DNA of 23,845 nucleotides from Syntrophaceae bacterium UBA1163 (GTDB lineage: Bacteria; Desulfobacterota; BSN033; UBA1163), in assembly GCA_002311635.1 (NCBI GenBank), contig DBZJ01000139.1:1-23845 (forward strand), in the 5' to 3' direction. The position numbers were made by a program, and so were the translations under genes. Position 1 is the first letter of the stretch, and each line of letters begins with the position of its first letter. The notes under the pieces were generated by a model. That model saw only the letters and a list, made by a program, of their open reading frames with translations, made no database searches and had not been told where the DNA came from. Below are positions 2,965-23,845 of the stretch, piece after piece.

Positions 2965-2968
2965 AACC
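2938..2968 (+). repeat. Dispersed AT-rich repeat forming the hcrB 3' end
   Basis: Core CCAAATTCCAAATCCCAAAT, followed by AAA. It supplies the last codons and stop codon of hcrB. A close copy lies at 7328-7357 after livK, and inverted relatives at about 7421-7460, so this is a family of short dispersed repeats. Confidence 0.6.
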
Positions 2969-2976
2969 CAATGCCC

Positions 2977-3002
2977 ACCCTCTCCCTTGGAGGAGAGGGT
3001 GG
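2977..3002. repeat. GC-rich palindromic dispersed repeat, type CCCTCTCC/GGAGAGGG
   Basis: CCACCCTCTCC, short loop, GGAGAGGGTGG: 11-bp arms. It lies between hcrB and hcrC. Relatives are at 5967-6012 and 13728-13780, and a degenerate arm near 1889-1913. It would form a strong hairpin in the hcr mRNA between two cistrons. Confidence 0.65.
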
Positions 3003-3025
3003 AGGTGAGGGGAAAAGAGGTTGTT

Positions 3026-3487
3026 GTGAAACGTATCATCACACTCAACGTCAATGGTGAAGAGTTCGAGTTCCTCACAGAAGTCCACAGAACCCTTCTT
3101 GAGGTTTTGAGAGAGGACCTGGGTCTGACAGGAACAAAGCGCGGTTGCGATTTGGGCACCTGCGGAGCTTGCACCGTCCTGATCGAGGGGAAACCTTATC
3201 TTTCTTGCTTGACCTTAGCCGCTGATGTCCAGGGAAAGAAGATTGTCACCATCGAAGGCCTCGCTCAAGACGGAGAACCTCACCCTCTTCAGAAAGCCTT
3301 CGTCCAAAAGGGGGCCATCCAGTGCGGATTCTGCACACCCGGGATGATCCTGATGGCCAAGGCCTTCCTCGACGAAAACCCCAATCCCTCAGAGGAAGAA
3401 GTGAAGCAGGCAATCTCCGGAAACATCTGCCGTTGCACCGGCTATACAAAGATTGTGGAGGCGATTCTATCGCTAACTCATAAATAA
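3026..3487 (+). CDS. hcrC: 4-hydroxybenzoyl-CoA reductase, [2Fe-2S] (gamma) subunit
   Basis: Small electron-transfer subunit carrying two [2Fe-2S] clusters that link the FAD/[4Fe-4S] subunit to the molybdenum site. The plant-type ferredoxin domain has C41, C46, C49 and C61 (GCDLGTCGACT). The C-terminal helical domain has C100, C103, C135 and C137 (QCGFCTPG and ICRCTGY). I chose the GTG at 3026 (153 residues) because AAGAGG lies five bases upstream and family members begin just before the first beta strand. A longer frame from TTG at 2987 would translate the palindromic repeat and is unlikely. Family proteins are about 150-165 residues. The cysteine pattern alone fits any xanthine dehydrogenase family small subunit; the assignment rests on the neighbouring HcrB-type subunit. 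Confidence 0.9.
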   Translation: MKRIITLNVNGEEFEFLTEVHRTLLEVLREDLGLTGTKRGCDLGTCGACTVLIEGKPYLSCLTLAADVQGKKIVTIEGLAQDGEPHPLQKAFVQKGAIQCGFCTPGMILMAKAFLDENPNPSEEEVKQAISGNICRCTGYTKIVEAILSLTHK

Positions 3488-3496
3488 TGGAAGTAC

Positions 3497-3541
3497 GGAC
3501 ACAGGACACGGACACGGTCACGAAATTTCGAGGAGTTCCTC
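3497..3541 (+). promoter_or_regulatory. hcrC-hcrA gap: short tandem repeat, palindrome and hairpin-embedded ribosome binding site
   Basis: Three GGACAC units at 3497, 3504 and 3510 and a degenerate GGTCAC at 3516 are followed by the palindrome CGAAATTTCG (3521-3530). Next comes GAGGA-GT-TCCTC (3530-3541), which ends directly at the hcrA ATG. The Shine-Dalgarno GAGGAG lies inside this last small stem, so it could be partly hidden. Confidence 0.45.
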
Positions 3542-5821
3542 ATGAATAAATTGGATGTGGTTGGAAAGCGAGAACCCATGCTCGACGCATGGGAGAAGGC
3601 AACGGGCCGGGCACGGTTCACAGACGATCTTGCCTTTCCGGGCATGCTTTACGGAAAGATATTGCGAAGCCCTCTTGCCCATGCGAAAATCCTCCACCTT
3701 GATCTCACCGGAGCAGAGAAAGTGACCGGAGTCAAGGGAGCAATTGGAGGAGAGGATATTCCAAAGAAAAAATATGGCATTGTTCCCATGGCGAAGGATG
3801 AATACGCGCTCGCCATCGGCAAGGTTCGCTACGTCGGGGACGAAGTCGCGGCGGTTGTCGCAACCTCCCTGGATGCGGCAGAGGAGGCCCTTTCGAAGAT
3901 CCAGGTGGATTACGAAGAACTCCCGGCGGTCTTCGACCCCGTCGAGGCGATGCAGCCCGGGGCTCCCGTTATCCACGAGGAAGTCCACAACAACGTAAGC
4001 GCTTCCATCCGGAAGGAATTTGGAAACGTGGAGAAGGCCTTCGGTGAATCGGACTTTCTTTTTGAAGATACCTTTGAGACTCAGGCCGTCAACCACTGTC
4101 CGCTCGAACCTCAGGCCGCCCTGGCCGTAGTCGATCCTTCAGGAAAAGTGACGCTCTACGCTTCCACTCAAATTCCTTTCTTTCTCAGAAGGAATCTGGC
4201 AACCACACTCGACATTCCGGAAAGCAAGGTTCGCGTGATCAAGCCAAAAGTCGGAGGAGGATTTGGCCAGAAAATCGACCTCTATGCCAAGGACTTCTGT
4301 GCCGCTTTCTTCGCCATGAAAACAAAGAAACCTGTCAAATTCGTCTATGAACGCGAAGAAGTTTTTACCTCAACCAGACAGCGACACCCGATGCACATTC
4401 AACTCAAGACAGGGATGCGAAAGGACGGAACCATCCTGGCCCAGCAGTTCAAGGTCATTGCGGACGGAGGTGCCTATAACAGCACAGCCCCCCTGATGAT
4501 TACCCTGGCTTGTTATTTTATCATGCTCCCATACCGTCTGGAAAACCTTCTCTTTGAAGGCTACCACGTTTACACCAATAAGCCTGTCGGAGGTGCCATG
4601 AGGGGGCACGGAATTCCTCAAGTCCGATTTGCGGTCGAGGCTCAACTCGATCACGTTGCTGAAAAGATGGGCATCGACCCGTTGGACCTCCGATTAAAAA
4701 ATGCCTTTCAGGCTGGGGCACCTCATCCTGCAAAACTGCGAGTCCAGACCTGCGGGTTTAGTGATACGCTGAAGACGGCGGCAAAAGGGATCGGCTGGGA
4801 GGAGAAGAGAGGCAAGCTCCCCTTCGGCAGGGGTGTGGGCCTCGCGGGCGCCAGCTTCCCGAGCGGGGTCAGCAATATGAGCCACATCTCCTCGGGTGCC
4901 ATGGTGAAGATCGAGCGGGACGGCAGCATTACGCTTCTGACTGGCGCCGCGGACATCGGCCAGGGCGCTGAGACCGTCATCTCTCAGATCGTTGCAGAGG
5001 AGCTGGGCGTTCCTCTCGAGGATATTCGGATTACCGCTGCCGATACAGAGATCACCCCCCTCGACCCCGGAACATTCGGCAGCGGCGTCACATTGAGGGC
5101 AGGCAATGCAGCCAAAATAGCTTCTCAAGAAGCCAGAGAAAAGCTCTTCGAAGCCGTGGCGGAGAAGATGGAAGTCAACGTTAAGGAACTGGAAGCCAGG
5201 AATCGCCGAATTTATGTCAAAGGAAGTCCTGAAAGGGGAATGTCTTTTAAAGAGGCGATTAAATTCTATCAATATTCGGACCGCCCCATGCCTATCATAG
5301 GCCGCGGTTCTTACCAGCCTCCGGCCAAAGAGCCCACTACGCTTCTCAAAGAGGATGGAAATTTTTCTCCCGCCTATTCTTTTATGACTCAGGCCGCTGA
5401 AGTGGAGGTCGATACAAAAACAGGAAAGGTGAAAGTCTTAAAGATGGTGGCAAGCCACGATTGCGGCAAGGCCATCAATCCCATGCTGGTGGAAGGTCAG
5501 CTGGAGGGGTCTGTCGTCGGAGGAATGGGACAGGCGCTTTATGAAGAAGTGATCACAGAGAAAGGACGGGTCCTGAATCCGTCGTTCCTCGACTATGGCA
5601 TCCCAACGGCCATGGAGGCTCCTTCCATTACCTCTGTGGAGGTCGAGACGAACGATCCAGAGGGCCCCTTCGGCGCCAAAGAATCGGGGGAGGGAACCCA
5701 GTTAGCCCCGGCGCCGGCCATCATAAATGCCATTTATGATGCCATCGGCGTCAGGTTCAAAACCCTTCCGGTCACACCTGAAAAGATTCTCCAGGCCCTT
5801 GACGAGAAGAAGAAAGAATAA
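3542..5821 (+). CDS. hcrA: 4-hydroxybenzoyl-CoA reductase, molybdopterin (alpha) catalytic subunit
   Basis: Catalytic subunit of the xanthine oxidase family that holds molybdopterin cytosine dinucleotide and dehydroxylates 4-hydroxybenzoyl-CoA. Length is 759 residues, close to the about 769 of Thauera HcrA. The N-terminal a/b hammerhead domain (residues 1-130) starts with the typical KREPMLDAWEKATGRARFTDD-like opening. Cofactor-binding motifs are GGGFGQK (238-244) and GGAMRGHGIPQ (350-360). The active-site glutamate is E714 in GAKESGEG. It is preceded by GAGGAG. It is the last gene of the hcrBCA set; this order differs from hcrCAB of Thauera. Sequence alone cannot exclude another aromatic CoA substrate, but the HcrB-type partner makes 4-hydroxybenzoyl-CoA the best guess. 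Confidence 0.88.
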   Translation: MNKLDVVGKREPMLDAWEKATGRARFTDDLAFPGMLYGKILRSPLAHAKILHLDLTGAEKVTGVKGAIGGEDIPKKKYGIVPMAKDEYALAIGKVRYVGDEVAAVVATSLDAAEEALSKIQVDYEELPAVFDPVEAMQPGAPVIHEEVHNNVSASIRKEFGNVEKAFGESDFLFEDTFETQAVNHCPLEPQAALAVVDPSGKVTLYASTQIPFFLRRNLATTLDIPESKVRVIKPKVGGGFGQKIDLYAKDFCAAFFAMKTKKPVKFVYEREEVFTSTRQRHPMHIQLKTGMRKDGTILAQQFKVIADGGAYNSTAPLMITLACYFIMLPYRLENLLFEGYHVYTNKPVGGAMRGHGIPQVRFAVEAQLDHVAEKMGIDPLDLRLKNAFQAGAPHPAKLRVQTCGFSDTLKTAAKGIGWEEKRGKLPFGRGVGLAGASFPSGVSNMSHISSGAMVKIERDGSITLLTGAADIGQGAETVISQIVAEELGVPLEDIRITAADTEITPLDPGTFGSGVTLRAGNAAKIASQEAREKLFEAVAEKMEVNVKELEARNRRIYVKGSPERGMSFKEAIKFYQYSDRPMPIIGRGSYQPPAKEPTTLLKEDGNFSPAYSFMTQAAEVEVDTKTGKVKVLKMVASHDCGKAINPMLVEGQLEGSVVGGMGQALYEEVITEKGRVLNPSFLDYGIPTAMEAPSITSVEVETNDPEGPFGAKESGEGTQLAPAPAIINAIYDAIGVRFKTLPVTPEKILQALDEKKKE

Positions 5822-10921: not shown

Positions 10922-11686
10922 TTAATGCTCTCTTATAGTACGACTGATGTCCTCGGCGGACTTCCGAATTTCCAACACGACCTTCTGCATCTTTTGGTCA
11001 TTCAGGCTCGAACTAAACCCCACGACCCAGATCGCAGCCGGTGGAGGTGAAGCGGCCAGAATGGGCGCGGCGACGGCTCTCACGCCAGGAATATATTCCT
11101 CATCGTCAATCGCATAGCTCTTCTTCTTCGTCTCTTCCACTTCTTTGAAAAACCTCTTGGGATCAAGGATTGACTTTGAAGTGAACTTAACCAATCCCAT
11201 TCTTCGGATGATCTCCTTTACTTTCTTATCATCAAACTGGGAGAGAAAGGCCTTTCCTGTTGCCCCGGCCAGAAGCGGTAGCCTCGTCCCCGGAGGCGAG
11301 GTGATTTTCATCTCATGGTGCGATTCCACCACATCCAAAATGGTGATGTGATCCCCGTTCATTATCCCAAGAAAAACGGTTTCCCCGACCTTTTCCCTCA
11401 ACCTTTCTATCGGAATTCTCGCCACGTCCCTCAGCTTCATCCTGCCATGCGCTCTCCTGCCGAGTTCCAGAAGGGTATACCCGACCGAATATTTCTTGTG
11501 GAGCGGGTCTCGAACCAATACTCCCAATTCCTCCAGGGCAGAGGTGATGCCGTGGACCGTGCTTTTCCCAATCTTGAGCTGTTTGGAGAGCTCGCTGATG
11601 CCCAGACCGTTTGAAGCATCTGAAACCGCGGAAAGAATCTTGAAAGCCTTTTTGACCGAGGGAGCCGAATAAGTTATTTTTCTCAT
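10922..11686 (-). CDS. IclR-family transcriptional regulator
   Basis: A 254-residue regulator with an N-terminal winged helix-turn-helix (about residues 11-75; GISELSKQLKIGKSTVHGITSALEEL-like recognition region) and a C-terminal IclR effector domain (about 85-250; PLLAGATGKAFLSQ and GVRAVAAPIL are typical). IclR proteins often sense aromatic or short organic acids. I choose ATG at 11686 rather than GTG at 11707: GGTGA precedes it and the family begins just before SAPSVKKAFKIL. Two palindromes of the GTTCAC-N4-GTGAAC type overlap its promoter and leader, suggesting autoregulation. The same palindrome occurs twice before the AOR operon, which suggests that operon is a target. The effector is unknown. 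Confidence 0.87.
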   Translation of the reverse strand: MRKITYSAPSVKKAFKILSAVSDASNGLGISELSKQLKIGKSTVHGITSALEELGVLVRDPLHKKYSVGYTLLELGRRAHGRMKLRDVARIPIERLREKVGETVFLGIMNGDHITILDVVESHHEMKITSPPGTRLPLLAGATGKAFLSQFDDKKVKEIIRRMGLVKFTSKSILDPKRFFKEVEETKKKSYAIDDEEYIPGVRAVAAPILAASPPPAAIWVVGFSSSLNDQKMQKVVLEIRKSAEDISRTIREH

Positions 11687-11688
11687 GC

Positions 11689-11704
11689 GTTCACCAGGTT
11701 GAAC
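11689..11704. promoter_or_regulatory. Candidate IclR operator O1 (leader of the regulator gene)
   Basis: GTTCAC-CAGG-TTGAAC, one mismatch from GTTCAC-N4-GTGAAC. It ends three bases before the regulator start codon and covers its ribosome binding site. Confidence 0.6.
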
Positions 11705-11711
11705 CACGCTA

Positions 11712-11741
11712 ACAGTACCAGATTCTGTTCACCTTTGTCAA
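11712..11741 (-). promoter_or_regulatory. Promoter of the IclR gene
   Basis: Reading the minus strand: TTGACA (plus-strand 11736-11741), 18-base spacer, TACTGT (11712-11717). The -35 box is inside operator O2. Confidence 0.5.
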
Positions 11742-11742
11742 C
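11727..11742. promoter_or_regulatory. Candidate IclR operator O2 (overlaps the regulator -35 box)
   Basis: GTTCAC-CTTT-GTCAAC, one mismatch from GTTCAC-N4-GTGAAC. O1 and O2 are 38 bp apart centre to centre. A further half site TGAAC follows at 11744-11748. Confidence 0.6.
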
Positions 11743-11779
11743 ATGAACCTGCAAGCCATAACCCGTAATCAACCAATCT

Positions 11780-11830
11780 ACCAGCCCCAGCCTTCAGGCT
11801 GCACGTTTACGCAGGCTAAAGCCTGCGCCT
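11780..11830. repeat. Pair of small GC-rich palindromes
   Basis: CAGCC-TTCA-GGCTG (11788-11801) and GCAGGCT-AA-AGCCTGC (11811-11826), in a context resembling dispersed extragenic repeats. They separate the IclR regulatory region from the NrfD promoter. Confidence 0.55.
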
Positions 11831-11925
11831 ACCATTTATGGTCACGGATCGTGGGCAAAGGACCAGGATTTTCTGGTCATACACATTAGGTGATGATCGC
11901 ACGCCTTGGGAATGGGGAGAAAATA

Positions 11926-11953
11926 TTGACAAAATATTTGGATATGATATTAT
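11926..11953 (+). promoter_or_regulatory. Sigma-70-type promoter of the NrfD / ferredoxin genes
   Basis: TTGACA (11926-11931), 16-base spacer, TATTAT (11948-11953); start expected near 11960. A weak GTTC-N8-GAAC element at 11970-11985 just downstream resembles, but poorly matches, the IclR-type operators. Confidence 0.55.
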
Positions 11954-12031
11954 TAATCAAAAAGAGGCTGTTCATTCCAAAGAACTCTTTTCTCCTTCAT
12001 CCGATGGACAATAGGCTTCAGAGTAGAAGGT

Positions 12032-13084
12032 ATGAGGGCAGGATATACTCATCCGATAAGAAATTCAAGATATCTTAGGCCCCAAGAGGAGTGGAAGGGG
12101 ATGATCGCCGTTTACCTCTATCTGGCAGGGATGGGAGCCGGTGCGTTTATCATCGGCACTCTGATCGGCTGGTTCAATGTCAAATTAGATCCACCCATCC
12201 TCTCTTCCATCGATCTTTTCGGCCTTACCCTGAACCTTTCAGCCGTCCCGATCCTTTGGGGACCAGTTATGGTCGCCATCGGCACCCCTTTTCTTATTTT
12301 AGACCTGGGAATCAAATGGAGATTTATGTATGCTTGCCTGAACCCGAGAACCTCCTGGGTGGCACGAGGATTCGTCATCCTTTCCATCTTCATTGTTCTC
12401 GGTCTGGCTCTCCTTGCTAAATCTATTCTGCCTTTTGAATGGCTCCATCAGGAATCAGTCCTCTGGCGGATTCCGGAGATCGTCGCTTTCATCTTTGCTT
12501 TCGGCACCGCCATCTACACCGGAATTCTCCTGAAGGCGACAAAGTCCATCCCCTTATGGAATACCAGTCTCCTCCCCCTTCTCTTCTTGGTATCAGGACT
12601 CTCCACCGGATCAATGGCCATCATCCTTTCCACCATGGGAACCGGTTTTTTCTCCCATGACGCCGGAGCATTGAAGGTCTTGATGCATGGGGAACAGTTT
12701 CTGGTTGTAGTGGAAGCGATCGTCCTTTATCTCTTCCTTTCCAGGAGGCATCGGGCCTCAGAACAGGGAAAGGATTCGGTTCGTCTCCTCGTATTTGGTG
12801 AGATGAAAATGATCTTCTGGGGAGGAATTGTCTTGCTGGGCTTCGTCTTCCCCATTATTCTTGAAAATGTCGCATCGCTCTTCCATGGAAATGCGGTGTT
12901 GATGTTTGCCGCAGGCATCCTTCTCCTCTGCGGCGGTTTTTTCCTCCGTTTGGGCATCCTCCGTGCCGGAATCAGGGATCAAATTCCTATGCATCGATTG
13001 ATGGAAATTCAGTATAACGCGACGGCCCAGAAAACAAAGGAGTTAGCAGCTGGAAAACCAACGAATTTGTCCTTAGCCCCTTAG
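12032..13084 (+). CDS. NrfD/PsrC-family quinone-interacting membrane protein
   Basis: Membrane subunit that in known complexes passes electrons between an iron-sulfur partner and the quinone pool. The 350-residue protein has eight predicted membrane segments (about 24-48, 68-90, 109-130, 147-167, 179-202, 218-236, 261-280, 288-310). It has the NrfD opening EEWKGMIAVYLYLAGMGAGAF. The start is uncertain: ATG 12032 keeps the conserved EWKG but its AGAAGG is only one base away, while ATG 12101 has GAGGAG at normal spacing but loses EWKG. It is followed 151 bases later by a four-cluster ferredoxin, the usual NrfD partner type. No catalytic molybdenum or tungsten subunit adjoins it; the nearest candidate is the AOR at 17193, whose own ferredoxin is a paralogue of this one. 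Pairing with the AOR is inferred. Confidence 0.82.
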   Translation: MRAGYTHPIRNSRYLRPQEEWKGMIAVYLYLAGMGAGAFIIGTLIGWFNVKLDPPILSSIDLFGLTLNLSAVPILWGPVMVAIGTPFLILDLGIKWRFMYACLNPRTSWVARGFVILSIFIVLGLALLAKSILPFEWLHQESVLWRIPEIVAFIFAFGTAIYTGILLKATKSIPLWNTSLLPLLFLVSGLSTGSMAIILSTMGTGFFSHDAGALKVLMHGEQFLVVVEAIVLYLFLSRRHRASEQGKDSVRLLVFGEMKMIFWGGIVLLGFVFPIILENVASLFHGNAVLMFAAGILLLCGGFFLRLGILRAGIRDQIPMHRLMEIQYNATAQKTKELAAGKPTNLSLAP

Positions 13085-13212
13085 ACGATTCACGCTTGCG
13101 CGCCCTGCCTCCGCTGGAGCGGCTTCGCGCAGGCAGGCGTAGCGCTTCAGCCCCTAAACCTAGTCCCGCGTCTCGCGGGATACAGCGCAGGCACGCTCAC
13201 GGGCCACGTTTT
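13085..13212. repeat. Mosaic palindromic repeat between NrfD gene and ferredoxin gene
   Basis: CCTGCCT (13104-13110) pairs with AGGCAGG (13131-13137), and TCCCGCG-TCT-CGCGGGA lies at 13164-13180. The CCTGCCT/AGGCAGG element recurs at 13755-13773. High GC and nested hairpins are typical of extragenic repeats. Confidence 0.6.
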
Positions 13213-13235
13213 GATCAAGAAAAAGGAGATCTGGA

Positions 13236-13721
13236 ATGGACGAAAAAGTATTGATCGTTGACCAACAGAAGTGTACTGGCTGCCGCTTGTGCGAGATGGT
13301 GTGTTCCGTATTTCATACGGGGGCAAGCAATCCAAGCCGTTCCAGGATCAAGGTGATCAAGTGGGAGGACGTGGGGCTGTATCTTCCCATGGCCTGCAAC
13401 CACTGCGAAAAAGCCTATTGCGTCGAGGTATGCCCGACAAAGGCCTGCCACCGAGAACCCGAAAACAATAACCGCGTGACCATCGACAAAAAACTGTGCA
13501 TCGGATGTCGAACCTGTGTCGTCGCCTGTCCCTTTGGTCATCCTTTCTTCGATGTCAGCGAAAGGGTCACTGTGAAATGCGATCACTGTGACGGTGATCC
13601 GCAGTGCGTTCGATTCTGTGACGTCAAGGCCATCTCTTTTTTGGATGCAGACAAGACAACCATAGCCAGGAAGCGAGAGTCTGCCAGCAGGTTTATTGAC
13701 TCTATGAGACGAGGAAGGTAA
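13236..13721 (+). CDS. Four-[4Fe-4S] ferredoxin-like electron transfer subunit (HycB/DmsB type), NrfD partner
   Basis: Electron-transfer protein of 161 residues with 16 cysteines in four groups: C13/16/19/23, C54/57/62/66, C88/91/94/98 and C115/118/124/128, enough for four [4Fe-4S] clusters in the usual crossed pairing. There is no signal peptide, so a cytoplasmic face is expected. Start is ATG 13236 with AAAAGGAGA upstream. It is a clear paralogue of the protein at 19245 (shared KCTGCRLCE, CSVFH, SRIK, KWE, LYxPM, DGDPQCVRFCD). Its place behind the NrfD gene suggests it is the soluble arm of a membrane quinone module. C71 is an extra cysteine not in the usual pattern. Confidence 0.87.
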   Translation: MDEKVLIVDQQKCTGCRLCEMVCSVFHTGASNPSRSRIKVIKWEDVGLYLPMACNHCEKAYCVEVCPTKACHREPENNNRVTIDKKLCIGCRTCVVACPFGHPFFDVSERVTVKCDHCDGDPQCVRFCDVKAISFLDADKTTIARKRESASRFIDSMRRGR

Positions 13722-13997
13722 CCCCACCTACCCCTCTCCCCTTTTCGAGGAGAGCCTGCCTGCGGTAGGCAGGGGCAGAGCAGGGGGTCAAATTGTCTCT
13801 GCGAGGAATGAAATGACGAAACGATCTCGCATTCACGAAGAGAGATTGCCACGCCTGCGTGCCGAAACATTTATCTGCACAAAGCGTTTCTACTAAGGAG
13901 AGCACTCCGGCGTGCAGGCACGCTCTCCCGCTAAGACGGGATCGCTCGCAATGACAAGACAATGAGACGGTGGCGCACAAAACGGGAGGCCCCTCCC
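13722..13997. repeat. Mosaic dispersed-repeat block between two convergent genes
   Basis: No gene. The left part is a CCCTCTCC-type palindrome (CTCTCC 13734-13739 with GGAGAG 13749-13754), with CCTGCCT-GCGGT-AGGCAGG nested beside it (13755-13773). The right part, on the minus strand, reads TCATTGCGAG ... GGCAATCTC (about 13810-13965), the familiar 'GTCATTGCGAGC...GCAATCTC' dispersed repeat seen in several bacterial groups. Inside it is a GC-rich insert (13902-13940) with CGTGC-AGG-CACG and CCCGCTAAGACGGG hairpins, so repeats are inserted in repeats. Confidence 0.65.
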
Positions 13998-15656
13998 TCA
14001 ATTTTTTCGTTTATACAGCTGCATCAATCCTGTTCTCGGGCAAGTATAGATTAAGTCATAGCCTTTCTTGATTTGTTGGAATATCGACTTCGTGGCTTCA
14101 AGATTTCTCTGACGCTCTTGAATACCCCAAACAAGAACATAATCAACTTGTCCCCCGGTGCGTCCCGCGTATGTGAGGAAATCGACTTGAGGCGGTTCCC
14201 ACACGATGGATCTGTCCTTAATCCCGATATGATCGTAGGGATTAAGACTTGATCGGAAGAGAACCGGAAAATATCTGTAGGCCCCCGCTTCGTAATTCGT
14301 AAATTCTACGACATGCCTCTGGGCGGCGATGTAACCAGAGACATGGAGGAAAGGCCGGACCTTCAGTGAGAGAACCCTTCCATCGGGTCCGTGGCCCTGG
14401 GAATCGAACACCAGAGGCAAAAGGGTTTTATTGGGCTCAATCAAATGCATTCCCGAGAGATATTCTGCCAGATAATTATTAAGCTCGGAGTATTTCAATG
14501 TGTGCAGCCCTAATGAGGCCGCCGTAATAACAATCGCAACGAGCAGGATTCCCCGCTTCACGGCTTTCAGATAAGGCTGGACTCCGAACCAGAGAACGAA
14601 TCCAAAAAAAGGATAGAGGTTAAGCCGGTCGGTAATGAAAGAACCCTCTGACATAGCATTAGGGGCTAAAAAGTAAATCAGGGCATACCCAAGAACGACG
14701 GCGAGAAGACCATCCCAACCGTCCAGCCGTCTCTGCTTTATCTTTGACACCGCAAGGTACAAGAAGAGACCCGCAAAAAGAATTCCCAGCCCTATAGAGC
14801 AGAAAGACTCCTCTCTCTGAAATGATACCAGTGATTCCATTTGCATCAGGTCCTTGAGCATCCAATAAAAAGACCTCCTTATCCCTATCTCTGGAGATTC
14901 TACTCCCTGCCAGGAAAGGAACATCACAACTACGATGACTGTCGGTAAAAATGCCAAAATGAGGGGTACGACTCGTCTGTCGAATGCTTTCCGGAGCACT
15001 TGGAAGTCGAATCGCGACTCACGTTTATCCCGTATCAGGTCGAACAAAATAAGCCAAACCGTCAAGAGAGCAATACCCATATAGGCCATCACAAGCGAAA
15101 CAATATGACAGAAATAAAGCAATAACGAAAGCAAAGCGAGCTTTATCGTCTTTCGCAGTGTAAGCTGGCCATGGTTCCTCATCCAATAGCCCACCAAGAA
15201 AAAGAAGACTGGCAGGCTATAAGAGAAAGAGTAGAAACCCATATGCAATGGGTAATTATAAATAAACGGGAACATCAGGAAAGTAAGGAATCCCGAGTCG
15301 GGACGAATCCCTCTCAGCGCATAACGAATTGACAGGGGTAAGAAGATGATATAACCGCTTAGGAAGATCTTCTCTGCGATGAAAGTTGGCACGATATACA
15401 TCAAACCCGCCAAGACAAGATGTCCGAGCCAAGTGGGTTCGAGACGCGTATTGAGGATATAGTAATCCCGGAGAATAGACCGATCAGGATTGAAGTAATC
15501 GAAAAGAATATTGGCGTTTTCAATGTGGGTGGGTCCGTCTTGCGAGGGGAAGGAGTGGAATACCCAGATGGGAATTAAGTGAGCCAAAATAAGGATAAGC
15601 AACATAAGATTTTCACGATTTTTTAGCCGAACGCACACACGATTCCAGATTTTCAT
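13998..15656 (-). CDS. Polytopic membrane protein, GT-C glycosyltransferase-like, function unknown
   Basis: Large inner-membrane protein with about ten hydrophobic segments, then a soluble C-terminal part of roughly 150 residues. The first loop after TM1 carries FHSFPSQDGPTHIENA; an acidic residue there resembles the loop-1 catalytic acid of GT-C transferases (PMT/ArnT-like), which use lipid-linked sugars. That is a weak resemblance and I do not assign a function. The frame is open to 15764; I prefer ATG 15656 (MKIWN, 552 residues, directly before TM1), with ATG 15683 and 15764 as alternatives; none has a clear Shine-Dalgarno. It is divergent from the lipoprotein gene and unrelated in content to the aromatic genes on both sides. 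Confidence 0.6.
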   Translation of the reverse strand: MKIWNRVCVRLKNRENLMLLILILAHLIPIWVFHSFPSQDGPTHIENANILFDYFNPDRSILRDYYILNTRLEPTWLGHLVLAGLMYIVPTFIAEKIFLSGYIIFLPLSIRYALRGIRPDSGFLTFLMFPFIYNYPLHMGFYSFSYSLPVFFFLVGYWMRNHGQLTLRKTIKLALLSLLLYFCHIVSLVMAYMGIALLTVWLILFDLIRDKRESRFDFQVLRKAFDRRVVPLILAFLPTVIVVVMFLSWQGVESPEIGIRRSFYWMLKDLMQMESLVSFQREESFCSIGLGILFAGLFLYLAVSKIKQRRLDGWDGLLAVVLGYALIYFLAPNAMSEGSFITDRLNLYPFFGFVLWFGVQPYLKAVKRGILLVAIVITAASLGLHTLKYSELNNYLAEYLSGMHLIEPNKTLLPLVFDSQGHGPDGRVLSLKVRPFLHVSGYIAAQRHVVEFTNYEAGAYRYFPVLFRSSLNPYDHIGIKDRSIVWEPPQVDFLTYAGRTGGQVDYVLVWGIQERQRNLEATKSIFQQIKKGYDLIYTCPRTGLMQLYKRKN

Positions 15657-15690
15657 CTCGCTACTTGGCACGGGCAATGTCATCGCATTG

Positions 15691-15705
15691 CAATAACGTT
15701 TATTG
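15691..15705. repeat. Small palindrome upstream of the membrane protein gene
   Basis: CAATAA-CGT-TTATTG, perfect 6-bp arms, upstream of the preferred start at 15656. Possible operator for that gene; no other support. Confidence 0.3.
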
Positions 15706-15876
15706 GTACGAGGTTCCCGGCTTCTTTCCAATGCGATGTTTATTCCGTAAAATACAATAACCAAATATGGAGGTCAAATGATATTTCGCAAATGGAACAA
15801 TTCGGGGCCATTTGCGGAAGTTCAGGGGAGAGTGTTAAACTTTTGGGACATTTCCCTTAGCACCTGGAGGCGAAAT

Positions 15877-16518
15877 ATGGTCAAGAGGAAAGGGTTACTG
15901 ATTATTGTAATTTTCGTTCTAATGATGGGATGCGATAAATCACCTGTTCGTGAGGAGGTCAAGGTTGATCGCAGTCTTCCCGTGGGCAAGATAGCAGGAA
16001 ATCAATTTGTTGGCATCAGGTATCCATTTAAAATCTCAGCTCCTCCCCATTGGAAAATAACCACTGAGATTCCAGATTTTATGGAGGAACTGGGCTATGT
16101 AAGAGATGGATTGAAATCGTCGCAGCTCTTCCTCTTCAACCCTTTAACTCACTCGAACTTTCAGATTGATTTCCAACCGGCCGGTAGGCATGCAAAGTTC
16201 AGCCAGGCGATGATCGAGGTACTCACAGGTATGATGACAGAAGGGACGATTTCCGAATTCAAGGAAGATTATGGAAAGGATCTTCAGGTGGAGACCGATC
16301 CCACAGAACCGATCTCCCTGAAGGGTGTCCAGTACGCGGCGAAGAAATATGTCACCTTTTCCATCAACGGGGTAAAGCGAGAGCAAGGATGGATTTATGC
16401 TTTCACGGAACCTTACCAGATCTTTATTCTTTACGTCATCCTGGAGAAACCAGGGGCAAACGACCGCGACGATATGAAGCAGATGTTAGATTCCTTCGAG
16501 GTTATCCCGAAAAAATAG
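15877..16518 (+). CDS. Putative lipoprotein, function unknown
   Basis: A 213-residue product with a type II signal peptide: MVKRKG, hydrophobic core, lipobox LMMGC with the acylated cysteine at residue 19, then DKSPV. The mature part resembles no family I can name; it has a repeated beta-like pattern (FVGIRYPFKISAPPHWKI; QYAAKKYVTFSINGVKREQGWIYAF) reminiscent of PsbP/DUF1795-type fat-binding folds often seen on bacterial lipoproteins. I choose ATG 15877 because CTGGAGG lies six bases upstream and it gives a proper signal peptide. An in-frame ATG at 15778 also has a good GGAGG, but would add 33 residues that hide the signal sequence. It is divergent from the membrane protein gene. Confidence 0.7.
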   Translation: MVKRKGLLIIVIFVLMMGCDKSPVREEVKVDRSLPVGKIAGNQFVGIRYPFKISAPPHWKITTEIPDFMEELGYVRDGLKSSQLFLFNPLTHSNFQIDFQPAGRHAKFSQAMIEVLTGMMTEGTISEFKEDYGKDLQVETDPTEPISLKGVQYAAKKYVTFSINGVKREQGWIYAFTEPYQIFILYVILEKPGANDRDDMKQMLDSFEVIPKK

Positions 16519-16606
16519 GTCCACGAGCTACCTCCTTTACTGACATGACGAGGGGCCGAATCTTGGACCGGATTTCCGCAGATGGACTTTTCTCACATGT
16601 GTGGCG

Positions 16607-16622
16607 GTTCACCATTGTGAAC
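16607..16622. promoter_or_regulatory. Candidate IclR-type operator, distal AOR site
   Basis: GTTCAC-CATT-GTGAAC, perfect 6-bp arms. Symmetry continues outward (GGC ... GCC), giving about 24 bp with few mismatches. It lies about 175 bp upstream of the -35 box, so it may act by looping with the proximal site or serve another promoter. Confidence 0.6.
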
Positions 16623-16647
16623 GGCCTTGAAACGGAGGTGTAGACGC

Positions 16648-16719
16648 ATGGAGAATAAACCAATTCTTACTAAATATTACCTCTGGCTGAAAATAATTAC
16701 CCTTTCAAGAGACCATTAA
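16648..16719 (+). CDS. Possible 23-residue leader peptide
   Basis: ATG GAG AAT ... TAA, preceded by CGGAGGTG nine bases upstream, a good ribosome binding site. The product would be MENKPILTKYYLWLKIITLS plus RDH. It lies between the two operators. It has no homologue I recognise and may be chance. Confidence 0.25.
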   Translation: MENKPILTKYYLWLKIITLSRDH

Positions 16720-16781
16720 GCCAAGTGGGCGGACGGAAAGATCTCACAACGATATCAACATCTTATAATGTAAATTTACCC

Positions 16782-16810
16782 TTGACAAAGAAATAAATGT
16801 GGCTTATTAG
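16782..16810 (+). promoter_or_regulatory. Promoter of the zinc ribbon-AOR-ferredoxin operon
   Basis: TTGACA (16782-16787), 17-base spacer, TATTAG (16805-16810). Start expected near 16817, so the proximal operator lies at about +30 to +45. Confidence 0.5.
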
Positions 16811-16845
16811 TTTATTAACTGTTCGCATCTCGGCATACCTTGCCA

Positions 16846-16861
16846 GTTCACTATCGTGAAC
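16846..16861. promoter_or_regulatory. Candidate IclR-type operator, proximal AOR site
   Basis: GTTCAC-TATC-GTGAAC, perfect 6-bp arms, 7 of 8 positions symmetrical in each half. Its place just downstream of the promoter suits repression. Confidence 0.62.
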
Positions 16862-16924: not shown

Positions 16925-17206
16925 ATGGTTGATCAGAAGGAAGGACTTTCGACAGCTGAGAGCCTGCGTAAGACCCGCAGCTACGGGCAGGTTAGGTGCC
17001 ATAACCCCAGCTGCATGGGAAGACTTCAGCCCCAAGCCGGAGTAAACCAAGTGAAATGCCCCGCTTGTGGCATGGAATATCGAGTGGCGTGGATCAAAAG
17101 TGGTTTTCCTCGCATCAGAGGTCCCGTGTGGGATGTAAACCAAAGATTAGCGGAGGAGGCGTTCGAGAGAAAAATGAAGGAGGAAAGGAAAGATGGCCCT
17201 AAATAG
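16925..17206 (+). CDS. Small zinc-ribbon protein translated with the AOR
   Basis: A 93-residue protein with two cysteine pairs, C-x4-C (RCHNPSC, residues 25 and 30) and C-x2-C (KCPACG, 45 and 48), in the form of a zinc ribbon, followed by a charged C-terminal helix (about 75-93). Start is ATG 16925 with AAAGGAGG upstream; starts further 5' lack support. Its last 14 bases overlap the AOR gene, so the two are translationally coupled and probably needed in fixed ratio. I do not recognise a specific family. It may help assemble, or form a small subunit of, the tungsten enzyme; this is inferred only from the overlap. Confidence 0.75.
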   Translation: MVDQKEGLSTAESLRKTRSYGQVRCHNPSCMGRLQPQAGVNQVKCPACGMEYRVAWIKSGFPRIRGPVWDVNQRLAEEAFERKMKEERKDGPK

Positions 17207-19133
17207 GAAGATAGCGTACATTGATCTCTCCACTGGCAAAATAGAAATCAGGCCTATACCGATCGACGTGCGGCGAAAATTCCTGGGAGGCCGAGGACTG
17301 GATGCCTACCTACTTTATAATCACACAAAGAAGGGATGCGATCCCCTTGGGCCTGACAATACGCTCATGGTGAGCGGCGGAATTTTGACTGCCACCTTGG
17401 CTTCGGCAACTGCCAGAACTCATGTCATGGCCAAATCCCCGCTTGGAGGCCTGCTGGGAAGTTGTAATATGGGAGGCTTCTTTGCTCCCGAGTTGGCCTG
17501 GGCAGGCTTTCATCATCTTGTGATCAAGGGGAAGGCGGAAAAGCCGGTCTACCTATGGATTCACAACGGCAAAATCGAAATCCGCGATGCTCGCGGGCTT
17601 TGGGGCAAGACCACCACCGAGACCCAATGGGCCATCCGCGAAGAATTGGCGGATGAGGACATTAAAAGTTTGGTCATCGGCCAAGCCGGTGAAAATAAAG
17701 TCCGGATTGCCAACGTCATGACCGGGATCAAAAATTCCGGCGGCAGGACCGGAATGGGAGCGGTCATGGGCTCAAAGAATTTGAAGGCCATTGCCGCCCG
17801 CGGCACCATGGATATCAAGATCGCCTACCCGAAGGAAGCCCTCGACTACAACAAACGCTTTATCGATCAGATCACGAGCGCCAAGGTAAACCAGACTCAG
17901 GGAGCCCTCGGTACCCCCTTTATCTGGGGAGCCACCAATTCCTGGGGGGGCGTCCGATGCAGAAACTTTCAGTACAACCAAGAACTCTATTGCGACGAAA
18001 TTGAACCGGAAGCCCTCGATGAGGTCTGCGCGGAAACGATGGGCCCCTACCACATGGCCGGCTGCTTCGGCTGTCAAGTCCACTGTCGGGCCAAGTATAA
18101 GATTCCTACCGGGCCTTATGCGGGAGTCTACGATGAGGGACCGGAGTATACCTCCCAGGGCGCTTTTTGCGGAGAGCCGGATTGCCGGAGCATTGAAACT
18201 CTGCTGACCGGCAATCACTTGGTGGATCAGTGGGGAATGGATAACCTCGAGACCGGAAGTCTGATCTCCTGGGCGATGGAGCTCTATGAACTTGGAATCT
18301 TGACCAAGAAAGAGACCGACGGCCTGGAGCTAACCTTTAGCAATGATGAGGCGCTCCTTGAGATGACAAGACGCATTGCTTTCAGAGAGGGATGGCTGGG
18401 AAATGCCTTGGCCGAAGGCGGGATCATCGCCTCTGAAATGATCGGAAAAAATTCGTTTGATTACTTGATCCAGGTGAAAGGGGTAAGCAATCTTCACTCC
18501 GATGAGCGAGCAACGCCCGCTTTGGCCCTAAACATTGCGACCGCTTCCCGCGGCTCAGACCATTTGAGAAGCCGCCCCGCGATTGACCTGTACCATTTAC
18601 CCGTAGAAGTGATGAGAAAGATCTACAGTAACCCGGTACCCTACGATGGACCGTTAAGCTCGGAACATACGGAGTACATTGGCAAGCCGTGGCAGGTCTT
18701 CTGGCATGAGAACTGTTATATGGCCGTGGACTGCCTCGGTATCTGTAAGTATCACACCGTCTTCCTGGGTGCCACACTTCCCAATTTTGAAGATTGGACG
18801 AAAGTGCTTCGGTACAATACGGGGCTGGAATTTACCCCCCGAGAGATTTGGGACATTGCGGAGCGATGCAACATGATCGAGCGGCTGTTTAACCTCCGAG
18901 AAGGGTTGCAGAGAGAAGACCTCAAGAAAGGAGATATGCTCAATCACCGTTATTTTGACGAGCCCTGCCGCCGTGGAGCACCCGATGTCGTCGGCAGAGT
19001 CATCGACCGTGAGAAATTCAAAAAGATGGTCGATGAGTTGTATGAATACAAGGGCCTTGATAAGAACGGTATTCCGAAGCCCGAAACGCTCAAGAGGCTT
19101 AGCCTGGAAAACGAGCCAGCGCACTTGGTGTGA
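17193..19133 (+). CDS. Tungsten aldehyde:ferredoxin oxidoreductase (AOR) family enzyme, active-site variant
   Basis: Member of the AOR family, which bind a tungsto-bispterin and one [4Fe-4S] cluster; the family includes aldehyde oxidoreductases and BamB of class II benzoyl-CoA reductase. Length is 646 residues (P. furiosus AOR 605, BamB about 650). The cluster ligands are C291, C294, C298 (CFGCQVHC) and C518 (LGIC). The N-terminal pterin domain shows LGGRGLDAYLL and KSPLGGLLGSCNMGGFF. By motif alignment to Pyrococcus AOR, active-site His448 is kept (H457, SRGSDH) but Glu313 is Thr320 (GPEYTS). Extra cysteines C326 and C331 lie just after. Sequence detail around the cluster is unlike my recollection of BamB, so I do not call it BamB. 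The zinc-ribbon gene overlaps it and a four-cluster ferredoxin follows, like the large and FeS subunits of Aromatoleum AOR. Confidence 0.88.
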   Translation: MALNRKIAYIDLSTGKIEIRPIPIDVRRKFLGGRGLDAYLLYNHTKKGCDPLGPDNTLMVSGGILTATLASATARTHVMAKSPLGGLLGSCNMGGFFAPELAWAGFHHLVIKGKAEKPVYLWIHNGKIEIRDARGLWGKTTTETQWAIREELADEDIKSLVIGQAGENKVRIANVMTGIKNSGGRTGMGAVMGSKNLKAIAARGTMDIKIAYPKEALDYNKRFIDQITSAKVNQTQGALGTPFIWGATNSWGGVRCRNFQYNQELYCDEIEPEALDEVCAETMGPYHMAGCFGCQVHCRAKYKIPTGPYAGVYDEGPEYTSQGAFCGEPDCRSIETLLTGNHLVDQWGMDNLETGSLISWAMELYELGILTKKETDGLELTFSNDEALLEMTRRIAFREGWLGNALAEGGIIASEMIGKNSFDYLIQVKGVSNLHSDERATPALALNIATASRGSDHLRSRPAIDLYHLPVEVMRKIYSNPVPYDGPLSSEHTEYIGKPWQVFWHENCYMAVDCLGICKYHTVFLGATLPNFEDWTKVLRYNTGLEFTPREIWDIAERCNMIERLFNLREGLQREDLKKGDMLNHRYFDEPCRRGAPDVVGRVIDREKFKKMVDELYEYKGLDKNGIPKPETLKRLSLENEPAHLV

Positions 19134-19244: not shown

Positions 19245-19751
19245 ATGGAACCCATGGGTAAAGTTCTTGCAATCACCCCCGAGAAATGCACTGGCTGCAG
19301 GCTTTGTGAGCTCGTTTGCTCCGTTTTCCATGACGGCGTATCCAATGCCGATCGGAGCCGCATAAAAATTATGAAATGGGAGTCAGAAGGCCTTTATATT
19401 CCGATGTCCTGCCAGCAGTGTCAGGACGCCCCCTGTATGATGGTTTGCCCCGTGAAGGCCATCTCCCGGGATGAGAAACTCAGCCGGGTCATGGTGAACC
19501 ACGATATCTGTATCGGCTGCCGTTCCTGTGTGGCGGTCTGTCCCTTTGGTGCGATGAATTTCAGCGCCATTGACAGAAAGAATTTTAAGTGCGATCTCTG
19601 CGACGGAGACCCGCAGTGCGTCCGTTTCTGTGACATGAAAGCCGTGGATTATGTGGAGGCCAACCGGGTGAGCATCTTGAAGAAAAAGGCTGCCGCCGAG
19701 AAAATCTCTGTGGCGCGGAGAGAAGCCGCAGCCTTAGAACGAGAAATGTGA
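19245..19751 (+). CDS. Four-[4Fe-4S] ferredoxin-like subunit, AOR partner
   Basis: A 168-residue electron-transfer protein with 16 cysteines for four clusters: C15/18/21/25, C56/59/64/68, C89/92/95/99 and C116/119/125/129. It ends in a lysine/alanine-rich charged helix (about 145-168) absent from its paralogue at 13236. Start is ATG 19245 after AAAGGAGAG. It lies 111 bases behind the AOR gene and probably accepts electrons from it, as AorA does in the Aromatoleum AorABC enzyme. No NAD- or FAD-binding third subunit follows, so the next acceptor is unclear; ferredoxin, or the NrfD module through the paralogue, are possible. Confidence 0.87.
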   Translation: MEPMGKVLAITPEKCTGCRLCELVCSVFHDGVSNADRSRIKIMKWESEGLYIPMSCQQCQDAPCMMVCPVKAISRDEKLSRVMVNHDICIGCRSCVAVCPFGAMNFSAIDRKNFKCDLCDGDPQCVRFCDMKAVDYVEANRVSILKKKAAAEKISVARREAAALEREM

Positions 19752-22188: not shown

Positions 22189-22956
22189 TCAACTGTCTTT
22201 CCAGGCGGGTTTTCGCTTATCTAAGAAGGCTTTCAGTCCTTCAATGGCATCGCTGGTTTTCATCAAACGATCCAAGTAGATCTTCTCAATGGTTTGGAGT
22301 CCCCTTTCAGGGTCGTCATTCAGACCGGCAAGTGTTGCCTCCTTCGTCAATTTCAGAACAATCCCACTCAACTTCTTAAACTTCTCTACAAATCGGTCCA
22401 CTTCTTCCGCGAGGGAGGCTTCGGGAACGATCTTATTGATCATCCCCAAGGCCAATGCCTCCTGAGCCTTAATGACGTCTCCAGACAGAATCAGTTCCAG
22501 CGCCTTCTTCCGTCCCATCATTCTCGGGAAGGCCAATGCGGCAATGGGCGGGAAGACTCCGACCTGGATCTCAGGCTGTCCGAACTTTGCCCTCTCCGTT
22601 GCCATCACCATATCGCAATAAACAGCTAATTCGCATCCTCCCCCGAGAGCTGAGCCGTTCACGACTGAAATCGAAGGGACCTTCAGAGCATCCATCAGGC
22701 GAAACATTCTATGGAAGACCTCGATCATCTTATAAACCAAATCGCCCAGATGTTCTCCGACGTCCACGCCGGCCGAAAATGCCTTCCCCACGGCCTGAAT
22801 GACCAGGAGTTTCAGGCCTTTTTCCTTCAAGAGTCCCTCAAAGTAGGTATTGATCTCCTCCATCATCTCGATATCGAGGACATTGAGGGGAGGCCGGTTC
22901 AGCGTAAGCGTAGCTACCCCCTCTTTGAGCTCTGTCTGAATATGTTTATATGCCAT
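22189..22956 (-). CDS. dch: Cyclohexa-1,5-diene-1-carbonyl-CoA hydratase
   Basis: Crotonase-family enzyme that adds water to the dienoyl-CoA made by benzoyl-CoA reductase, giving 6-hydroxycyclohex-1-ene-1-carbonyl-CoA. The 255-residue protein shares the Dch/BamR hallmarks: AFSAGVDVGEHLGD (compare FSFGASVDEHMPD of Thauera Dch), GQPEIQVGVFPP, and the C-terminal SDAIEGLKAFLDKRKPAW. The oxyanion-hole GGGCELA is present. Start is ATG 22956, with GGGAGGTGAT directly upstream; the GTG at 22965 is part of that ribosome binding site. It follows bamA but is set off from it by a terminator, and has its own terminator downstream, so it may be monocistronic. BamR is the name for the Geobacter orthologue. 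Confidence 0.88.
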   Translation of the reverse strand: MAYKHIQTELKEGVATLTLNRPPLNVLDIEMMEEINTYFEGLLKEKGLKLLVIQAVGKAFSAGVDVGEHLGDLVYKMIEVFHRMFRLMDALKVPSISVVNGSALGGGCELAVYCDMVMATERAKFGQPEIQVGVFPPIAALAFPRMMGRKKALELILSGDVIKAQEALALGMINKIVPEASLAEEVDRFVEKFKKLSGIVLKLTKEATLAGLNDDPERGLQTIEKIYLDRLMKTSDAIEGLKAFLDKRKPAWKDS

Positions 22957-22979
22957 TGGAATCACCTCCCTTTACCATG

Positions 22980-22996
22980 ACTCGTGAACGTGAATG
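22980..22996. promoter_or_regulatory. Possible half sites upstream of dch
   Basis: GTGAAC-GTGAAT in tandem in the dch leader. One unit equals the half site of the IclR-type palindromes, but the inverted partner is absent. Weak. Confidence 0.2.
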
Positions 22997-23035
22997 GTGA
23001 TGCCCCAACAGTAGATTTGCCAAAGACAAATCCCT

Positions 23036-23084
23036 AAAAAGGTACCCTTTGGGCCAGAGATTATTTTTTGCCCAAAGGGTACCT
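23036..23084 (-). terminator. Strong rho-independent terminator after bamA
   Basis: Perfect 15-bp stem: AGGTACCCTTTGGGC (23040-23054) and GCCCAAAGGGTACCT (23070-23084), 15-base loop. On the minus strand it ends in TTTTT (plus 23036-23040), 20 bases after the bamA stop. The loop has six T in a row on the plus strand. Confidence 0.85.
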
Positions 23085-23103
23085 GCGTCATCAACCCTCC
23101 TTG

Positions 23104-23845
23104 CTACTTTTGAGGTTTTCCCAACACTTCCTCAAAGAATTTTTCATCCAGGATCTTGCTTTCCGCAATATTCTGACGGTACTTGATGAAGTTGATGACA
23201 TCCTGGCCGGTGATCTTTTTGGTATTGAAGGCCCCGAAGCCGAGGAACGCCTCGCCCATCATATTGGCCGCCAGCCAGTGCCTGTTGTAGTTTTTCGAGT
23301 AGTCCCAGAAAAATTTCTTTTTGGCCCGGACCGAATCAATCGACTTAATCAGGCAGCCTGGAAACAGATTGGTGAACGTCCAAACGATCTTATCCACCTC
23401 GGCGTCGAGCAGCGAGAAGTCATAATCGTTGTTTTTCAGTTTGTTGTTCACCCACTCTCTTGCCTTTTTGAATTCTTCACCCGTCTTAAATTCTCCGTAG
23501 ACAATCTCACCATTCTCAACATACTTATCGGTGATGACCTGCGGGTTGCGCACCCAATTCCCCTTCTCATCCTTAAGGACGGGAACGCACTTGGAGATGA
23601 GGGTCTTCATCTTCATCTTGTAAGCGCTCCACATCTCGCAGCTCACGCAGTTCCACATGGCGTCTTCCATCCCCAGGAACCACGGCAGAAAGTCGGAAGA
23701 GCCGCCATCCGGAGCAGAGCCATGCCGGGGACCCGCCTGTCCGTAGATGGCCAGGTCCGAAGAGATCGCCAGGTCGCAGGCCATTCCAATCTCCTGGCCG
23801 CCTGCCACCCTCATCCCATTTACACGGCAGATGACGGGCTTCTTA
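23104..23845 (-). CDS. bamA: 6-oxocyclohex-1-ene-1-carbonyl-CoA hydrolase, 5' partial
   Basis: Ring-opening hydrolase of the benzoyl-CoA pathway (BamA/Oah): it adds two waters to 6-oxocyclohex-1-ene-1-carbonyl-CoA and yields 3-hydroxypimelyl-CoA. The last 247 codons are in the window; the frame is open through the edge (KKPVICRVNG before the internal ATG at 23814), and about 130 N-terminal residues are missing compared with the usual 375-380. Diagnostic segments are VICRVNGMRVAGGQEIGMA, GQAGPRHGSAPDGGSSDFLP, SCEMWSAYK and GEFKTGEE. BamA is a standard marker gene for anaerobic aromatic degradation. Its neighbour dch catalyses the step two before it. The dehydrogenase between them (Had) is not in the window. 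Confidence 0.92.
   Translation of the reverse strand, partial: KKPVICRVNGMRVAGGQEIGMACDLAISSDLAIYGQAGPRHGSAPDGGSSDFLPWFLGMEDAMWNCVSCEMWSAYKMKMKTLISKCVPVLKDEKGNWVRNPQVITDKYVENGEIVYGEFKTGEEFKKAREWVNNKLKNNDYDFSLLDAEVDKIVWTFTNLFPGCLIKSIDSVRAKKKFFWDYSKNYNRHWLAANMMGEAFLGFGAFNTKKITGQDVINFIKYRQNIAESKILDEKFFEEVLGKPQK

Follow-up and report, generated by a model that had tools for sequence, protein, structure and literature searches.

The window analysed here, a stretch of 23,845 nucleotides from contig DBZJ01000139.1 of Syntrophaceae bacterium UBA1163, contains a gene for an IclR-family regulator (iclR), a divergently transcribed nrfD–fer1 pair, and an operon encoding a small zinc-ribbon-like protein (ZnR), an AOR-family large subunit and its 4Fe–4S small subunit (ZnR–AOR–fer2). 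These genes share a palindrome, GTTCAC-N4-GTGAAC in its strongest form, with the core GTTCA-N6-TGAAC; the reversed pattern served as the control. The palindrome is interpreted below as the probable operator of the IclR protein, which would be a local, self-regulating regulator acting probably through operator pairs. Genes, predicted promoters and putative operators are listed in Table 1.

Table 1 Features of the window. Promoters and operators are predictions; operator centres are counted from predicted transcription starts, and scores are those of a position weight matrix (PWM).
Feature	Coordinates	Strand	Remarks
iclR, IclR-family regulator	10922..11686	-	254 aa; ATG at 11686; Pfam IclR_C 134.5 bits and HTH_IclR 46.8 bits, both above cut-off
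O1, putative iclR operator	11689..11704		IclR sense GTTCAACCTGGTGAAC; PWM 18.1, third in window; counterpart in 22/24 iclR loci
Predicted iclR promoter	11712..11741	-	-35 TTGACA 11736-11741; -10 TACTGT 11712-11717
Predicted nrfD promoter	11926..11953	+	-35 TTGACA 11926-11931; N16; -10 TATTAT 11948-11953; start near 11961
O2, putative nrfD–fer1 operator	11970..11985		GTTCATTCCAAAGAAC, degenerate; centre +16.5; PWM 13.3, fourth in window
nrfD, NrfD-family membrane subunit	12032..13084	+	Pfam NrfD 121.4 bits
fer1, 4Fe–4S protein	13236..13721	+	Pfam Fer4 families
O3, putative upstream AOR operator	16607..16622		Perfect; centre -203.5; PWM 24.1
Predicted AOR promoter	16782..16810	+	-35 TTGACA 16782-16787; N17; -10 TATTAG 16805-16810; start near 16818
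O4, putative downstream AOR operator	16846..16861		Perfect; centre +35.5; PWM 24.6, best in window
ZnR, small zinc-ribbon-like protein	16925..17206	+	93 aa from ATG; first gene of AOR operon; conserved upstream of AOR in relatives
AOR, AOR-family large subunit	17193..19133	+	Pfam AFOR_N 250.4 and AFOR_C 313.6 bits
fer2, 4Fe–4S small subunit of AOR	19245..19751	+	Best structures are small subunits of AOR complexes 9mqx and 8c0z

Palindromic sites in the window and its genome

The initial annotation had described four such palindromes and no further full match, and the search bears this out: 16607–16622 and 16846–16861 match perfectly, 11689–11704 and 11727–11742 carry one mismatch each, and the window holds no fifth site with at most one mismatch. 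The four palindromes are far beyond chance, as 400 dinucleotide shuffles gave a mean of 0.0325 such sites (maximum 1; none reached 4). With up to three mismatches the window contains 12 sites against 7.6 expected, which is not significant (9 of 100 shuffles reach 12). One of these, 11970–11985 (O2), coincides in position with an operator conserved among relatives.

The assembly to which the window belongs (genome G000; 4,084,907 bases in 248 contigs, 90.6% complete) contains only two perfect matches, namely the AOR pair. At up to one mismatch it has eight sites, four in the window and four elsewhere, compared with six for the reversed pattern, so the motif does not rise above background outside the window. 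Of the four outlying sites, that on contig C156 falls between open reading frames (ORFs); the other three are inside ORFs of 80 aa or more. The core occurs seven times in this genome, three of them in the window (reversed control, 2).

On another contig of the same assembly (C49; L207:6566-6664), two core sites stand 83 bp apart, with a TonB-receptor-like ORF on one side and a tungstate-type transporter on the other, both named from their translations. This pair (6566, 6649) was set aside as a regulon member, having no counterpart on the relatives' transporter contigs: none of 41 core sites in eight relatives of the same family lies on a contig matching the transporter's binding protein (seven of the eight genomes have a match).

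Conservation of the sites in related genomes

The comparison set comprised 59 genomes, 17 of which, G000 included, form the window's own family. It holds 36 copies of the perfect motif and none of the reversed pattern. Twenty-eight copies belong to the family, in 15 of its 17 genomes (none in G006 or G007), and eight to 7 of the 42 other genomes. All 28 family sites start 50–392 bp upstream of the zinc-ribbon gene opening the orthologous AOR operon. Random scatter in the genome had been named in the initial annotation as an outcome that would count against its small IclR–AOR regulon with a shared palindrome. The perfect motif is not scattered, and the palindrome is kept upstream of orthologous AOR genes (perfect) and iclR genes (with one mismatch). 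Its conservation at both genes, together with the match to an IclR-family consensus described below, supports that regulon.

Seventeen AOR promoters of the family were examined, from 16 genomes with two copies in G005; G007 was handled separately. Close AOR orthologs were among the matches listed for the family, that of G002 being split over two contigs and that of G015 starting at a contig edge. All 17 promoters carry two operators (28 perfect sites and 6 with one mismatch), one on each side of a TTGACA promoter with an A/T-rich -10, an arrangement that would permit a loop. The downstream operator is centred at +33.5 to +37.5 in 15 of the 17, and the upstream operator at -70.5 to -75.5 in 12, at -85.5 in two and at -192.5 to -212.5 in three (the window, G001 and G006). 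The two are separated by 107–110 bp in 11 promoters, by 119 or 121 bp in two, and by 222, 226, 239 or 241 bp in four, the window having 239 bp. The first base of the downstream operator lies anywhere from -50 to -392 of the coding start, a wider variation than in its distance to the promoter, so this operator is placed relative to the promoter. The two AOR starts of G005 (L094 and L095; contigs C34 and C3) have operator pairs 108 and 107 bp apart and stem either from a duplication or from variation between strains in the assembly.

At the regulator gene, orthologs with 68–77% identity begin at the same ATG in 15 of the 16 other family genomes (all but G015). An operator lies at the regulator's own promoter in 22 of 24 iclR loci, other families included, as in a local autoregulated regulon. 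It lies no more than 32 bp ahead of the assigned start codon, and its centre is at +6.5 to +12.5 in the 21 loci with a predicted promoter; a TTGACA -35 box is present in 22 of the 24. In the window, transcription is predicted to start near 11704 on the minus strand. O1 spans predicted +1 to +16, covers a ribosome-site-like GGTGA stretch and ends 2 bp short of the ATG; an alternative, longer iclR ORF from GTG 11707 would read through it. The inner base on the gene-distal side of the iclR operator is not C (mostly A) in 21 of 22 loci, unlike most AOR sites, for which affinity tuning or a ribosome site kept free of hairpins can be offered as a guess. In G006 (L096), the iclR frame has an ATG inside the operator, so that operator and start codon may overlap.

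The initial annotation had placed two sites at iclR, one covering the -35 box and the other the ribosome-binding region. Both exist as sequence, but the palindrome at 11727–11742 is not conserved in family relatives and was rejected as an operator, being read as the iclR -35 box plus a chance half-site. A palindrome-like match at this place (PWM score of at least 7) occurs only in G000 among 16 family loci, its right half is shared by none of the 15 family relatives, and its PWM score is 12.0 against a shuffle maximum of 15.4.

The nrfD–fer1 pair, overlooked in the initial annotation, is a predicted third target of the regulon. A TTGACA-N16-TATNAT promoter stands on the nrfD side in all 16 family loci, and an operator (GTTCATTATGAAGAAC or similar) is centred at +16.5 to +18.5 in each of them; in G020, G031 and G054 it stands at +13.5 to +15.5. 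The iclR-side and nrfD-side operators are 127–133 bp apart in 11 family loci and are parted by 200–301 bp through extra sequence in G000, G002, G009, G014 and G016. In G007, the divergent neighbour of iclR is the AOR operon, which carries an nrfD-type operator, and nrfD–fer1 is located on another contig. There nrfD retains an operator pair, GTTCACTATTATGAAC and, at +16.5 by hand count on the sequence, GTTCATTATGAAGAAC. Since it does so away from both iclR and AOR, the operators appear to follow their genes.

Conservation was also ranked by a footprint scan in 16-column windows, with no motif supplied, in two alignments. The iclR–nrfD intergenic alignment covered 11 of 16 family loci, G000 and G002 having been skipped and G009, G014 and G016 excluded because of insertions. 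Its two most conserved windows coincide with the two operators, with an offset of one base at the second. The alignment upstream of AOR covered 11 of the 17 promoters, those with short spacing; here the two operators again rank first, ahead of the ribosome site and the -35 box, with the -10 box also among the most conserved windows.

Gene order varies more widely. iclR and AOR are adjacent and divergent in G017, G041 and G042 (AOR taken from the matches listed), and iclR lies beside or near AOR in other families as well. In G020 (L117:11302-11721), the AOR standing beside iclR is 80% identical over its first 49 residues and then continues into bases read as X, probably a masked stretch. The operon divergent from iclR in G031 and G045 comprises two iron-sulfur genes (CCG-type and 4Fe–4S by Pfam in G031) followed by zinc ribbon, AOR and fer2; no clear operator was found at this operon in G045. 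Among loci L137 to L145, operator pairs lie between divergent iclR and zinc-ribbon genes in L137 and L138 (IclR 53% identical), ATTCA-N6-TGAAC pairs lie upstream of zinc ribbon–AOR in L142 and L143, L141 has one site at a contig edge, and no operators were found in L139, L140, L144 and L145. Across loci L140 to L199 (883 kb), only five positions score at least 15 by weight matrix, all of them upstream of zinc ribbon–AOR.

The regulator, the AOR proteins and their neighbourhood

The regulator carries both domains of the IclR family (PF09339, 46.8 bits, cut-off 22; PF01614, 134.5 bits, cut-off 24) and matches the IclR structure 1mkm with an E-value of 6e-29. None of the named IclR equivalogs (BhcR, KdgR, PcaR/PobR, IclR and AllR) exceeds its NCBIfam cut-off, the best being BhcR with 165.5 against 350 bits. 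Its own assembly contains only one full-length homolog at E ≤ 0.001. The motif GTTCAC-N4-GTGAAC conforms to GTYCRY-W4-RYGRAC, which is the group 1 consensus of the IclR family in its even form (PMC8222616), with a W4 centre that is only mostly A/T. As described in the main text of that study (Suvorova and Gelfand 2021, PMC8222616), group 1 motifs are found in local regulators and IclR-family proteins bind as dimers or tetramers; examples are PcaR of C. glutamicum, with GTTCGC-N3-GCGAAC, and NpdR, with GTTCMRYATMRTGAWS. Delta-Epsilonproteobacteria make up 2.27% of the group there, and COG2414 (AOR) is absent from the main text.

The window regulator resembles group 1 members in palindrome type, small regulon and targets in or near aromatic metabolism. 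Tandem group 1 sites are mainly 18–22 bp apart, with three and four turns also over-represented (PMC8222616), whereas here they are 107–241 bp apart around a promoter. The kind of regulator, a group 1 local regulator, is known; the operator layout is unusual. E. coli IclR, which acts at aceBAK, is an autorepressor of the same family. It differs in belonging to an A/T-rich motif group (PMC8222616) and in having other targets. No IclR–AOR regulon was found in the literature searched, which held few subscription papers.

The AOR gene product contains both the AFOR_N and AFOR_C domains of its family. Among solved structures it scores 283 bits with 9mqx, 282.5 with 1aor and 242.6 with 8c0z; the 186 bits with BamB (4z3w), compared with 283 for 9mqx, disfavour its identification as the benzoyl-CoA reductase BamB. 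In an alignment with P. furiosus AOR, from which the numbering is taken, the position of Glu313, a residue with a functional role, is Thr320 in the window protein; all 8 of the 8 orthologs aligned likewise have Thr there, and four of seven paralogs have Glu. The His448 position is His in all eight aligned orthologs. Judged by these residues, the chemistry of this AOR clade may differ from aldehyde oxidation. ZnR has no match in Pfam or NCBIfam, and the two ORFs between nrfD–fer1 and the AOR operon (13998–15764, 588 aa; 15778–16518, 246 aa) have none in Pfam.

The surroundings of AOR appear to be an anaerobic aromatic degradation neighbourhood. Two proteins encoded in the window are related to 4-hydroxybenzoyl-CoA reductase subunits, with scores of 773.5 and 271.2 bits that stay below the respective cut-offs of 994.55 and 404.55. 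A 6-oxocyclohex-1-ene-1-carbonyl-CoA hydratase is represented by a fragment at the window edge, which scores 312.4 bits across 236 aa against a cut-off of 464.45. The regions 1978–5821 and 22189–23814, with their neighbours, also include enoyl-CoA hydratase, acyl-CoA dehydrogenase and SDR relatives and a Liv-type transporter. These aromatic-catabolism neighbours suggest a regulator sensing a pathway intermediate, and because of them an aromatic metabolite is a reasonable guess for the effector.

Among known systems, aorABCDE of Aromatoleum aromaticum likewise combines an AOR large subunit with a 4Fe–4S small subunit and has a MoaD-like gene nearby, as here (PMC6365974, PMC13328260). Unlike it, the window operon has no AorC-like FAD subunit and has NrfD–fer1 nearby instead (PMC6365974); in that paper, IclR has no occurrence. 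In Geobacter metallireducens growing on benzoate, the AOR-family genes bamB and Gmet_1802 and the IclR-type gene Gmet_2064 are induced at least 10-fold (PMC1924859). The relevant passages of that report contain no operator or AOR–IclR link, and the window AOR resembles AOR more than it does BamB.

Proposed mechanism and its alternatives

Taken as a whole, the explanation that we regard as probable is that the IclR protein (10922–11686) binds the palindromes and represses iclR, nrfD–fer1 and ZnR–AOR–fer2. From sequence evidence, binding by this protein is very likely and repression rather than activation is likely; bridging of the AOR operator pair has about an even chance, and the identity of the effector is a guess. 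Autorepression would be exerted from O1, over the predicted transcription start and ribosome site, and the divergent nrfD–fer1 pair would be repressed from O2, just downstream of the predicted nrfD start. ZnR–AOR–fer2 would be repressed from two strong operators flanking the promoter, most likely through bridging by a dimer of dimers. Repression would last until an effector releases the protein; a metabolite from the aromatic/benzoyl-CoA route encoded around these genes is the probable candidate. At AOR, bridging repression is favoured over independent action of the operators, and the latter over activation. GalR at gal likewise uses two operators around promoters, with a loop of 113 bp compared with 107–110 bp in 11 of the 17 promoters here; however, GalR belongs to an unrelated family and gal has strict phasing and depends on HU, whereas bridging here is proposed and the window spacing is 239 bp (PMC4693257).

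Several observations weigh against this explanation. The 420 bp upstream of ZnR yielded no site in G017, G020, G031, G045, G054 and G033; in G031 and G045, AOR sits within a longer operon. Among the 24 iclR loci, G018 (48% identity) and G045 are without an iclR operator, and G017 is without an nrfD-side operator. Of the 41 sites matching the looser core in eight family relatives (reversed control, 3), 21 belong to the three targets, and the other 20 may include further, weak regulon members. O2 is degenerate in its own genome, with a score inside the range of the shuffles (12.5 is attained by 3 of 40 shuffled windows), and it was accepted as an operator because its position is conserved in relatives, not for its score. 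The downstream AOR operator departs from its usual position in G006 (+28.5) and G004 (+146.5), and the pair spacings of 107–241 bp follow no clear helical phase across related genomes. Transcription starts were everywhere predicted from consensus hexamers, and the weight matrices were built partly on family sites, which makes scores within the family partly circular.

The alternative that survives best, though we hold it less probable, is that the same regulator acts at each operator independently: the downstream operator would hinder RNA polymerase near the promoter, and the upstream operator would have an auxiliary part. It would account for a nearly fixed downstream position beside an upstream position ranging from -70 to -212, for the lack of clear phasing, and for iclR (O1) and nrfD (O2), each of which seems served by one operator near the start. 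At gal, however, the GalR–OI complex alone, in another protein family, fails to block elongating polymerase (PMC4693257). Moreover, all 17 AOR promoters keep the upstream operator, which is as well conserved as the downstream one.

The IclR family also includes activators, among them PobR and PcaU, and a distance of about -73 is one that upstream activators use. Activation of AOR from the upstream site in this manner, with repression confined to iclR itself, would suit the 12 of 17 upstream operators near that distance. We consider it unlikely, given that the upstream site lies at -192 to -212 in the window, G001 and G006, that the downstream site is the more fixed of the two, and that AOR promoters keep a consensus TTGACA -35 box.

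As the assignment of the palindromes to this IclR protein is drawn from sequence, another transcription factor might bind them instead. This is very improbable: the motif occurs at iclR itself in 22 of 24 loci, other families included, and fits the group 1 consensus, while G033, whose AOR is 64% identical, has neither a close IclR relative nor a site in the 420 bp upstream. Chance repeats are already refuted by the shuffles (0.03 sites with at most one mismatch), by the counts of perfect sites in the assembly and in the 59 genomes, and by the footprint scan, and RNA hairpins, which six-base arms around four bases could form in the leader transcripts of iclR, nrfD and the downstream AOR sites, are scarcely credible as an explanation since the upstream AOR sites precede the predicted start and are equally conserved.

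The predicted IclR regulon holds with one site removed and with one site and one target added, and sequence conservation argues strongly for it. The operators are graded, being perfect at AOR, with an inner mismatch at iclR and an outer mismatch at nrfD. A more tentative extension is that an IclR tetramer closes loops of about 110–240 bp at AOR and co-controls a tungsten AOR and an NrfD/iron-sulfur membrane module through these graded operators. If true, the regulon would bring to light a respiratory AOR complex of Desulfobacterota that has gone unrecognised and exchanges electrons with quinones. Shared regulation predicts NrfD and fer1 as functional partners of AOR. Among tungsten oxidoreductases, a member with a defined physiological role is found in only 5 of 92 clades (2026 classification, PMC13328260). 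A dedicated regulator with a conserved operator would suggest that this AOR is inducible and tied to the aromatic/benzoyl-CoA neighbourhood. Sampling of the IclR operator code has been sparse in this branch of the tree (Delta-Epsilonproteobacteria, PMC8222616), and the promoter-flanking pairs described here open long-range cooperation in the IclR family to direct testing.

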